Below, piece by piece: positions 51,253-53,933 of a stretch of 64,000 nucleotides of DNA. The stretch is from Oscillospiraceae bacterium (GTDB lineage: Bacteria; Bacillota; Clostridia; Oscillospirales; Ruminococcaceae), in assembly GCA_021200775.1 (NCBI GenBank), contig JAJQGB010000007.1, positions 62,001 to 126,000 of the forward strand, read 5' to 3'. Position 1 is the first letter of the stretch, and each line of letters opens with the position of its first letter. A program made the position numbers and the translations under genes. The notes beneath the pieces were generated by a model, which saw nothing but the letters and a program-made list of their open reading frames with translations, had not been told where the DNA came from and did no database searches.

Positions 51253-51267
51253 GAAAGGATGAATATA

Positions 51268-51540
51268 ATGGCAGAACAATTCTTTGAATACAAGGGTATG
51301 CCTTTGGTTCGCAAGGGCAACGAGCTCTATTATGGTAGCATGGGGGACAAGGAAGTCGTCTATATGCAGATTGCGGCTTCCGAGAAGCAGGGCGACGTCG
51401 ATGTCGCCACGAAGGTTCGGGTTTACAGAATGTTGACCGACGAAAACGTCCCCGTCATGGAGCGCATAACCAAGACGACAGAGAAGAAGACCCTCTTTGA
51501 GGCAATCGACCTCGCACATGATTGGTTGGCGACGAGATAA
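51268..51540 (+). CDS. Small conserved-looking protein after DUF4340
   Basis: A 90-residue soluble protein I do not recognise. Predicted beta-rich start (F-F-E-Y-K-G-M-P-L-V-R-K-G-N-E-L-Y-Y-G) and a C-terminal helix (T-L-F-E-A-I-D-L-A-H-D-W-L). AGAAAGG is well placed for the ATG at 51268 and too near the ATG at 51259. It sits 15 bp after the DUF4340 gene and directly before a strong terminator, so it is probably the last gene of the Gld-like cluster and may assist it in the cytoplasm. Confidence 0.7.
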   Translation: MAEQFFEYKGMPLVRKGNELYYGSMGDKEVVYMQIAASEKQGDVDVATKVRVYRMLTDENVPVMERITKTTEKKTLFEAIDLAHDWLATR

Positions 51541-51541
51541 G

Positions 51542-51570
51542 AAAAAATCCCGCTTCGGCGGGGTTTTTTA
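51542..51570 (+). terminator. Intrinsic terminator of the Gld-like cluster
   Basis: An 11-bp stem (AAAAATCCCGC/GCGGGGTTTTT) with TTCG tetraloop and T-run. It is symmetrical and may also stop transcription from the minus-strand toxN gene. Confidence 0.92.
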
Positions 51571-51604
51571 ATGTACAATGAAGGTGTCGGCAATGCCGGA
51601 AGTT

Positions 51605-52165
51605 TTATCGGATGAACTTTTTGCAGGCTTCTTCGAGCTTTGAGAAGTTGCAATAGAACGGTCGTATTATGCCGGAATTCTTTTGGTCGGAGTAAATCCG
51701 GGAGACATTTGTAGCGATTTTATCCCTGATACTCAGGCAGAACCGGTATTCTTTTTCGAGAATTCCACGGTACACGGTGTCGGTGATTTCCGAGAAATTG
51801 ACCCGATGATAGAGCCCCGCCGGCACCGGAATCATCTTCTTCAAATCCAGGACGGCAATAATGTGCTTGACCTTCCCGTTACCGTCCGGCTTGCGCATAG
51901 CTTTCGGAGACAGATTGTCTTCATTCACGATTTCGTATATCAGAAAGTAGTCTCTGGAGGAGTTTCTCCAATTCAGGTGCTTTGGTTTACTCGAAGAAAA
52001 CGGGACGAAATATGTAAAATCGCCGATGCCGATGATTATCCCGAGAAAAGGTTTGGTTTCATAGCGGTTCGGCGAGTAAAACACCTCGCTGTCGACGTCG
52101 TGAAGGTATTTCAGGTATGGTACATCAACCGTATAGATGCCAATATCGTTGAATTCAATATCCAT
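51605..52165 (-). CDS. toxN: Type III toxin, ToxN/AbiQ family endoribonuclease
   Basis: A 186-residue protein matching the ToxN/AbiQ family (PF13958): Y-L-K-Y-L-H-D-V-D near 17-25, K-P-F-L-G-I at 38-43, the conserved F-V-P-F-S-S-S-K-P-K-H at 53-63 that holds the active-site Ser/Lys residues, A-V-L-D-L-K-K-M-I-P-V-P, and the late C-N-F-S-K-L-E-E. ToxN cleaves RNA, including its own antitoxin precursor, and blocks growth or phage replication when freed. Length is near the usual 165-190. The upstream tandem-repeat RNA and terminator give the canonical type III order. AAGAGG lies eight bases before the ATG. Confidence 0.92.
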   Translation of the reverse strand: MDIEFNDIGIYTVDVPYLKYLHDVDSEVFYSPNRYETKPFLGIIIGIGDFTYFVPFSSSKPKHLNWRNSSRDYFLIYEIVNEDNLSPKAMRKPDGNGKVKHIIAVLDLKKMIPVPAGLYHRVNFSEITDTVYRGILEKEYRFCLSIRDKIATNVSRIYSDQKNSGIIRPFYCNFSKLEEACKKFIR

Positions 52166-52180
52166 GGTAAACCTCTTACT

Positions 52181-52204
52181 AAAAGAGGAGGGTAAACCCT
52201 CCTC
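52181..52204 (-). terminator. Terminator between antitoxin repeats and toxN
   Basis: On the minus strand GAGGAGGG-TTTA-CCCTCCTC is followed by TTTT. In type III systems such a leaky terminator sets the excess of antitoxin RNA over toxin mRNA. Confidence 0.9.
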
Positions 52205-52350
52205 AGTTCTTTACAGTTCCGCACTTGGGATGTAGGCGGCGGAACGCCTTTCTGACAGGTCGCACTTTCTTGTCGGGCGGCGAAACGCCCTCTTTACAGT
52301 TCGCACTCGGGATATAGGCGGCGAAACGCCTTCTTTACGGACTTTCGTCC
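52205..52350 (-). ncRNA. toxI: ToxI-like antitoxin RNA: three ~41-nt tandem repeats
   Basis: On the minus strand, unit 1 is 52338-52298 (41 nt), unit 2 is 52297-52257 (41 nt) and unit 3 is 52256-52215 (42 nt). A 10-nt partial unit (GTAAAGAACT) abuts the terminator. Each unit has GTAAAGA (GTCAGAA in unit 3), a GGCG-TTY-CGCC hairpin, and a tail ending in AGTGCG(G)A(A/C)CT. The variable middle (about 8 nt) differs between units. The 5' end carries a GGAC-GAAA-GTCC tetraloop hairpin (52339-52350). The toxin is expected to cut the precursor into single repeats that inhibit it. Confidence 0.9.
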
Positions 52351-52356
52351 ACCTAT

Positions 52357-52385
52357 AGTATACACTATCCGAAAGAAAAAAGCAA
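52357..52385 (-). promoter_or_regulatory. Promoter of the toxI-toxN locus
   Basis: On the minus strand: TTGCTT (52380-52385), 17 bp, TATACT (52357-52362). Transcription begins just before the first hairpin. Confidence 0.85.
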
Positions 52386-52434
52386 CAGGATTTTTAAATT
52401 TTTCTCCATGCAAAAACTAGCAAAACAGGAAAGT

Positions 52435-52545
52435 TTGAAAAGTGGCTATTTTTGTGGCAAAATTATATTGAAAAGTGGGTAAAAATCGAGCTGAAAAGTA
52501 TTGAAAAGTGGCTTGAAATGGGGTATAATATTATTGAAAAGTCAT
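52435..52545. repeat. Four boxes at exact 33-bp period upstream of second DUF4143 ATPase
   Basis: TTGAAAAGT begins at 52435, 52468, 52501 and 52534: three intervals of exactly 33 bp. The first three read TTGAAAAGTGG. A near-match CTGAAAAGT lies 10 bp before the third. The third box is the -35 element of the promoter. Sequences between boxes differ. A regulator or the ATPase itself may bind one face of the DNA here; this is inference. Confidence 0.88.
52501..52529 (+). promoter_or_regulatory. Promoter of the second DUF4143 ATPase gene
   Basis: TTGAAA (52501-52506), 17 bp, TATAAT (52524-52529), embedded in the 33-bp array. Confidence 0.85.
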
Positions 52546-52580
52546 TTAAGGTGAAATCGGGCTTTTGAAGAGGTGTTTTT

Positions 52581-53933
52581 ATGCTGACCCGCAAAATTGA
52601 AAAGGTGATTCGGGAGCATTTGCTCGGGAATTCCGGGAAGATTCTTCTTATCGACGGCGCCCGGCAGGTCGGGAAGACTTATATCATCCGGCATGTGGGA
52701 AGGGAACTGTTTGAGAACATTATCGAAATCAATATGGTTGAGGATTCCCTCGGCGAGCGGCTGTTTGCTGAGGTGAAGACGGTCGACGATTTCTATCTTC
52801 GGCTCAGTATGACCGAGGGCGACAAGATGCACGAAAAGTCGGACACTCTCATCTTCATCGACGAGATTCAGGCTTATCCCCATCTTCTGACGCTTCTCAA
52901 ATTCCTGTCGCAGGACGGAAGATACACATTTATCGCAAGTGGTTCGCTTCTTGGAGTGACTTTGTCGCAGACAACTTCAATTCCGATGGGAAGTATCAGA
53001 AAAGTCAGAATGTATCCCTTAGATTTTGAGGAATTTCTTTATGCCAACGGCATGAACGAAGCGGCGGTGTCGGTTCTAAGAACAAAATTTGAGAAAAAAG
53101 AGTCCCTTGACACGGGACTGCACGAAAAGATGATGGATTTATTCCGGAAGTATCTTCTGGTCGGCGGACTTCCGGACGCTGTGAACACGTTTCTTGAAAG
53201 CAAGAATATCCAGCGTGTCAGGGAGATTCAGTCGGAGATTCACGACTATTATGCCGCCGATGCCTCAAAATATGATTCTGAGAAGAAGCTTAAAATCCGC
53301 CGGGTTTATGACATGATTCCCTCTAATATGGAGAACAAGAAGAAGCGGGTTGTGGCACAGAGCATTGAGGGCAAAAAGGGCAAGACATTTCTCGACTATC
53401 AGGACGAGTTTGAGTACCTTATCAGCGCCGGAATTGCCTTGAATGTTCAGGCAATCTCGAACCCGCAGTTTCCGCTTTCCCAGTCTCAGGGCAAGAATCT
53501 TCTGAAGCTATACCTGAATGACGTCGGGATTCTCTCGGGAATCCTTTATGGCAACAATATGCGTGCGATTATGGACGAGGTTCGCTCGGTTAATCTCGGG
53601 TCGGTCTATGAGACGGTAGTTGCGAGCGAGCTTGCGGCGCATGGGCACAAGCTCTACTATTACGACAACCGTGTTAAAGGCGAGGTCGACTATCTCATCG
53701 ACGACTACGAAAGTCTGTCCGCCGTCCCAATTGAGGTCAAATCCGGCAAGGATTATAATGTCCACAGCGCACTGAGCGCCTTCGTCTCGAATGAGGACTA
53801 CCACGTGAAGAAGGCGTATGTCCTTTCAAACGAAAGAGAGATTCTGACTGACGGCAGGATAACCTATCTCCCGATTTATTTCGTGATGTTTTTAGGTACA
53901 GAAACCGGCACGGAAAATCTGATTATTGAATAG
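52581..53933 (+). CDS. AAA+ ATPase, AAA_14 plus DUF4143 domains, second copy
   Basis: A 450-residue paralogue of the 5915-7204 product. Walker A G-A-R-Q-V-G-K-T is at 26-33, Walker B L-I-F-I-D-E-I-Q at 90-97, and the sensor A-S-G-S-L-L-G-V follows. The DUF4143 C-terminus has G-E-V-D-Y-L-I-D-D, P-I-E-V-K-S-G (nuclease-like core), and L-P-I-Y at the end. The two proteins differ in many positions, so they are not a recent duplication. GAGGTG precedes the ATG. It stands next to the toxN locus on the opposite strand, in what looks like an accessory island. Role unknown. Confidence 0.9.
   Translation: MLTRKIEKVIREHLLGNSGKILLIDGARQVGKTYIIRHVGRELFENIIEINMVEDSLGERLFAEVKTVDDFYLRLSMTEGDKMHEKSDTLIFIDEIQAYPHLLTLLKFLSQDGRYTFIASGSLLGVTLSQTTSIPMGSIRKVRMYPLDFEEFLYANGMNEAAVSVLRTKFEKKESLDTGLHEKMMDLFRKYLLVGGLPDAVNTFLESKNIQRVREIQSEIHDYYAADASKYDSEKKLKIRRVYDMIPSNMENKKKRVVAQSIEGKKGKTFLDYQDEFEYLISAGIALNVQAISNPQFPLSQSQGKNLLKLYLNDVGILSGILYGNNMRAIMDEVRSVNLGSVYETVVASELAAHGHKLYYYDNRVKGEVDYLIDDYESLSAVPIEVKSGKDYNVHSALSAFVSNEDYHVKKAYVLSNEREILTDGRITYLPIYFVMFLGTETGTENLIIE

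Follow-up and report, generated by a model that had tools for sequence, protein, structure and literature searches.

Among the described systems closest to the locus analyzed here are three characterized ToxIN systems with repeats of 34–36 nucleotides (nt), ToxIN_Pa (36 nt), ToxIN_Bt (34 nt), and AbiQ (35 nt; PMC5086642), and CptIN_Er, in which the CptI repeat is 45 nt long and has a 9-nt loop L2 (PMC4627078). The solved type III antitoxin structures are either short-L2 ToxI or long-L2 CptI, and closure of the RNA-protein ring is proposed to depend on the fold of the RNA (PMC5086642, PMC4627078). Phage infection is aborted by ToxIN_Pa, AbiQ, and TenpIN_Pl (PMC5377504); CptIN_Er stabilized plasmids, and in the tests performed with it no phage was aborted (PMC4627078). 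Here we describe a minus-strand locus at positions 51605–52385 of a 64,000-nt stretch of an Oscillospiraceae genome (“the window” below is this whole stretch), which we interpret with high confidence as a chromosomal member of the ToxIN family of type III toxin-antitoxin systems.

On sequence and predicted fold there is little doubt about the assignment to ToxIN, and a function like that of its relatives is presumed. The window ToxIN is very probably a self-poisoning switch of a familiar type, its RNA-cutting toxin restrained by a repeated RNA; it belongs to a branch that has been little described, with enlargement both of the RNA fold and of a part of the toxin that may face the RNA.

Results

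A sequence-only reading of this DNA had described, on the minus strand, a promoter, a GNRA-capped hairpin, units of 41, 41, and 42 nt, a terminator, and a 186-codon gene, all of which were located by coordinate (Table 1). Its further claim of a type III locus with a toxin of the ToxN/AbiQ family is borne out by toxin homology, by the alignment of catalytic residues, and by structure alignments. K38, S57, S58, and K60 of the window ToxN align with K33, T52, S53, and K55 of ToxN_Pa, the motif FVPFSSSKPKH occupying residues 53–63; AbiQ was the only PADLOC model to reach an E-value (E) up to 0.1; and the protein model contains the long kinked helix of the ToxN family (residues 130–145/147–164, predicted).

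The antitoxin repeats were read in a frame taken from published ToxI, with stem S1 at positions 1–4/13–16, stem S2 at 9–12/22–25, and L2 at 17–21. For ToxI_Pa we used what we take to be its sequence, which is consistent with the bases named in the published ToxI description. The window units fit this frame as AGGC-GUU-UCGC-C-GCCU-[AUAUCCCGAGU]-GCGA, with a 3-nt L1 and with A-R-G-U closing L2. The repeat had been thought to match nothing known: its core in fact follows the published ToxI frame, and what does differ is the length of L2, the C at position 12, and the flanks.

An H-type pseudoknot with S1 and S2 is supported in the window clade by compensatory change. All 72 S2 cells are paired in 18 distinct core rows (34 units, 12 loci), a proportion biased upward, as is apparent covariation, by the unit finder's requirement for at least three S2 pairs; when the S2 3′ strands were permuted 10,000 times the mean was 62.3 paired cells and 72 was never reached, though kinship among the sequences inflates this comparison and the shuffles that follow. 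When 25 of these 34 units were aligned with MAFFT, pairing was seen in 200 of 200 pseudoknot cells, and 37 cells show double changes, a number as high in 0 of 500 shuffles, with every slide far lower. The automatic unit finder chose wrong registers for some loci, among them the last units of L017 and L086, locus L059, and the L001 group, and those were read by eye. The GGCG-TTY-CGCC stem, part of the repeat in the sequence-only reading, fails as a conserved fold: its bases serve both the G-G-C/G-C-C and the Y-C-G-C/G-C-G-R helices of the pseudoknot. As a hairpin it has 95 of 100 cells paired and five broken, and none shows a double change.

The tandem array spans 52338–52207 on the minus strand (period 41, 3.2 copies, score 144). 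Pseudoknot position 1 falls at 52331, 52290, and 52249, giving unit lengths of 41 and 41 nt and, measured to the next A-rich junction, 42 nt, and by the ToxI register cuts within UA^AAG would yield RNAs of 41, 41, and 42 nt. At the junction of units 2 and 3 (52250–52259, UGUCAGAA), TGTCAGAA stands in place of TGTAAAGA, and the AAAG cut motif is absent there in the window and in the orthologues L004 and L023. Rfam at gathering score gave no antitoxin family over the array in the window or over the arrays of 15 relative loci. Relaxing the threshold to E up to 5 in the region around the locus still left the array without a match.

The toxin is enlarged in one segment. Between the catalytic lysine and a K-M-I-P motif (the segment aligned to window residues 61–109), 16 of 59 toxins (14 intact, two truncated) have 49–51 amino acids (aa), and the remaining 43 have 23–40; the model places these extra residues in the turn that joins strands 73–81 and 98–107. 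The 14 intact long-segment toxins lie on one side of a branch with support 100/100 in a tree of 56 rows (columns filled in fewer than 30% of rows excluded). In this clade L2, counting position 22, is 10–12 nt long for 12 of the 14 intact toxins, although one of two L057 units has only 6, and 20–22 nt long in L031 and L060. Among the short-segment toxins, 27 of 43 have an L2 value, mostly 4–8 nt, with one L090 unit parsed at 10; values set beside toxin segments were entered by hand from the unit finder, and 16 of the 43 lack one. The association of turn and L2 is not a statistical correlation, since it is based on a single split. Outside the clade, L007 combines an 11-nt L2 with a toxin segment that is somewhat lengthened, at 35 aa; L2 may have been enlarged there independently.

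Ser65, Glu73, Asn79, and Lys87 of E. coli ToxN contact ToxI (PMC8860590). From the residue numbers of the alignment it follows that these contacts would sit on the hairpin matching the enlarged turn, and the turn may itself touch L2.

In three members of the clade (L030, L031, L060), L2 could form a stem of its own in all six units: two of 7 base pairs (bp), two of 5, and two of 3. Their summed score was as high in 0 of 5000 shuffles; taken singly, neither 3-bp stem stands out from chance (1585 and 1858 of 5000), and the signal of one 5-bp stem is weak (332 of 5000). In L030, a contig labelled as phage, the toxN frame runs to the end of the record. Among the literature matches listed, no title or abstract opening mentions a ToxI with a hairpin in L2; an earlier description is possible. 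As a separate observation, the leader ahead of unit 1 in L017 and L086 may hold a short-L2 pseudoknot like the L090 repeats, before three long-L2 units, perhaps making a mixed array or decoy antitoxin; because 222 and 253 of 5000 random leaders (about 5%) give such a match, this stays a hint.

Table 1. Features of the ToxIN locus, in window coordinates.
Feature	Position	Strand	Basis
−35 element TTGCTT	52380..52385	−	sequence; TTGCAT in the same place in L004, L023
−10 element TATACT	52357..52362	−	sequence; identical in L004, L023
5′ hairpin GGAC-GAAA-GUCC of antitoxin transcript	52339..52350	−	sequence; orthologue comparison
ToxI unit 1, predicted 41-nt monomer, core 52331–52301	52295..52335	−	cut sites inferred from ToxI register
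ToxI unit 2, predicted 41-nt monomer, core 52290–52260	52254..52294	−	cut sites inferred
ToxI unit 3, predicted 42-nt monomer, core 52249–52219	52212..52253	−	sequence, unit finder
Fourth-unit remnant AAGAA after last predicted cut	52207..52211	−	sequence, tandem-repeat search
Intrinsic terminator between antitoxin and toxin, then TTTT	52185..52204	−	terminator scan
AAGAGG, likely toxN ribosome-binding site	52172..52177	−	sequence
toxN, 186 aa, ToxN/AbiQ endoribonuclease toxin (ATG at 52165, stop at 51605)	51605..52165	−	homology, alignment, model
Enlarged beta5-beta6 turn, codons about 82–97, typical of long-turn clade	51875..51922	−	alignment, segment lengths, model
Terminator behind toxN	51549..51562	−	terminator scan

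The two promoter elements are separated by a 17-nt spacer. The 5′ hairpin reads GGAU-GAAA-AUCC in L004 and L023, a paired change on both sides. Between antitoxin and toxin the terminator reads GAGGAGGG-TTTA-CCCTCCTC-TTTT, and a scan of 51500–52700 found four terminator sites, against a shuffled mean of 1.5.

With the window ToxN as query (E up to 0.001), matches were found in 14 of 297 genomes of the family, in 8 of 31 of the genus, and, in samples of the order and the class, in 20 of 394 and 35 of 391 genomes, respectively; these sets overlap, and each includes the window's own genome. Further searches with ToxN returned five loci in genome contigs, 88 plasmid records, two phages, and, among viral contigs, one ToxN of 32% identity. 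Queried with L029, the viral contigs gave three partial matches (32% identity); queried with L060 they gave none, and a phylum sample searched with L060 at E up to 1e-15 gave one of 398 genomes, its own. The 90 loci gave 74 different open frames. One locus, L022 (in the related genome G271), has an apparently intact antitoxin array before a toxN frame of only 98 aa. The genome has a second ToxIN (L001, C6:260435–260917), with short-L2 repeats about 35 nt apart and close relatives in three congeners (L087, L088, L089).

The neighbor gene at 51259–51540 is present in 30 of the 31 genomes of the genus. In five congeners (L093, L097–L100) it is followed directly by an AAA_14/DUF4143 ATPase gene, with no match to the locus stretch, and against the closest of them (L098) the unmatched part is window 51547–52399. 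Within the 1.5 kb downstream that were covered, two others (L092, L094) have the ToxIN locus and no ATPase gene, and two more (L095, L096) have neither. No mobility gene was found in the ToxIN cassette, and no target-site duplication was seen. Such patchiness of a chromosomal locus among species would fit a defence or a selfish role.

Ahead of the window's own AAA_14/DUF4143 ATPase gene (52581–53933, plus strand) lie four TTGAAAAGT iterons (52435–52544) at an exact spacing of 33 bp; a pattern with 22-nt gaps, also considered, is wrong. Similar repeats precede the ATPase orthologues in L093 and L097–L100, and TTGAAAAGT was not found at the fetched loci of the genome's other 11 DUF4143 genes. 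The iterons are possibly a self-regulation site.

Discussion

By analogy with characterized relatives, a single promoter would give a short transcript carrying three ToxI units; most of these RNAs would end at the terminator, and some would read through to produce ToxN. The ToxN ribonuclease would cut its own antitoxin transcript at the A-rich junctions (predicted UA^AAG), and the resulting 41- to 42-nt pseudoknots would bind ToxN and block it, presumably in a ring-shaped assembly. Were the antitoxin supply halted, for example by a phage shutting down transcription, freed ToxN would cut cellular and phage RNA and growth would stop; to judge by the relatives, the role may be phage defence or self-maintenance. 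That the window locus is functional is plausible, given its intact gene, the catalytic residues kept, and the compensatory RNA changes.

Several observations weigh against this account of the locus. Junction 2/3 lacks the A-rich motif, which makes complete processing doubtful, and the promoter ahead of the repeats, weak by consensus, went unreported by the promoter scanner in a scan of the locus. Of five measures of the pseudoknot alignment, two, the count of double-change pairs and that of additional pair types, do not exceed the shuffles, 134 and 158 of 500 of which gave equally high values. Position 12 is C and position 22 U in all three window units, where E. coli ToxI has U-U; in the clade, these two positions pair in only 8 of 18 distinct rows. 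The type III pseudoknot expected by the sequence-only reading emerges from compensatory change; RNAfold, which predicts nested helices only, folded the array as a single sequence into nested helices with no pseudoknot.

ToxI is described with a four-pair S1 and an S2 containing the U12-U22 pair, with L2 between, and U12-U22 with G21 is a conserved trait of E. coli ToxI clusters (PMC8860590). The U12-U22 pair is absent from the window units; it is a trait of the E. coli clusters and no condition for the ToxIN family.

The degenerate junction and the weak promoter might instead mean a decayed or silent ToxIN, recognizable by homology and inactive. Decay does occur among relatives: seven long-clade toxN genes are broken or shortened (L059, L061, L062, L063, L064, L065, L066; five of the seven in another family, f57, of the class), with internal stops in L059, L063, and L066 and short frames in L061 and L062 as well as in L022, and at least one repeat unit still stands upstream in L059, L061, L062, and L066. 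The window's own 186-codon frame is intact with its catalytic residues, however, orthologues 86–89% identical in related species keep a similar promoter, the same array, and the same order, and compensatory changes are seen in both array and 5′ hairpin, so that decay seems unlikely. A CptIN system, perhaps with a CptIN-like tetramer, is suggested by the 41- to 42-nt repeat and L2 of about 10 nt, near the 45 and 9 nt of CptI_Er; against the long broken helix (in the model) and 3-nt L1 of the window, CptIN has a short unkinked helix and a one-base L1, and we consider this very improbable. Least probable of all is that the repeats serve mainly to regulate toxN at the RNA level or to attenuate its transcription, working by GGCG-TTY-CGCC hairpins and the terminator with no processed antitoxin: most units allow such a hairpin, and RNAfold gives nested helices, but the hairpin has broken cells and lacks the double changes found in 37 cells of the pseudoknot, and the antitoxins of characterized relatives are processed (PMC5086642).

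The window antitoxin is likely to have a specificity of its own, because the published ToxI and CptI antitoxins showed no cross-neutralization in the tests reported (PMC5086642, PMC4627078). With the second, short-L2 ToxIN of the same genome, it can be tested directly whether two ToxIN systems in a single cell are kept apart. A bolder suggestion, which we offer tentatively and think rather less likely to be right than wrong, is that the clade is its own structural class of ToxIN: the larger beta5-beta6 turn and the enlarged L2 would have arisen together, one branch (L030, L031, L060) would later have acquired a third helix within L2, and the geometry or stoichiometry of the complex would depart from the known 3:3 triangle, with separate specificities. 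Antitoxins of the clade range from those with an L2 of roughly 10 nt to those whose L2 carries a hairpin, which would make the ring-closure idea testable within one ToxN family. The enlargement of L2 and of the toxin turn gives the window ToxIN a moderate interest.

Comparison with known systems

With the ToxIN systems of Pectobacterium atrosepticum and E. coli (2xd0, 7d8o; PMC8860590) the window locus shares gene order, the ToxN fold, the catalytic Lys/Thr-or-Ser/Ser/Lys, and the pseudoknot frame (S1 1–4/13–16 plus S2, with A-R-G-U before the S2 3′ strand); the proteins are 24–28% identical in structure alignments. Compared with ToxI_Pa, the window repeats are 41–42 rather than 36 nt long, L2 is about 10 rather than 5 nt, position 12 is C, and S2 extends to pair 8-26; compared with ToxN_Pa, the beta5-beta6 turn is about 17 residues longer. 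The ToxIN of Bacillus thuringiensis (4ato) and AbiQ-antiQ of Lactococcus (4glk) likewise differ from the window in their shorter repeats, of 34 and 35 nt. CptIN of Eubacterium rectale (4rmo; PMC4627078) has in common with it a long repeat, a long L2, and the beta core. The ToxI candidates HMP2_3156, HMP2_5421, and HMP2_14852 (PMC8040213), from Clostridiales and Leptotrichia, are likewise structured RNAs that precede ToxN. The best plasmid match is the ToxN of E. faecalis pGTC3 (L029, NZ_KY303941.1), 50% identical, in the same long-turn clade and with an L2 of 10–11 nt including position 22; unlike the window locus it is carried by a conjugative plasmid, with a recombinase and a transposase nearby, and its S2 3′ strand is G-U-G-G.
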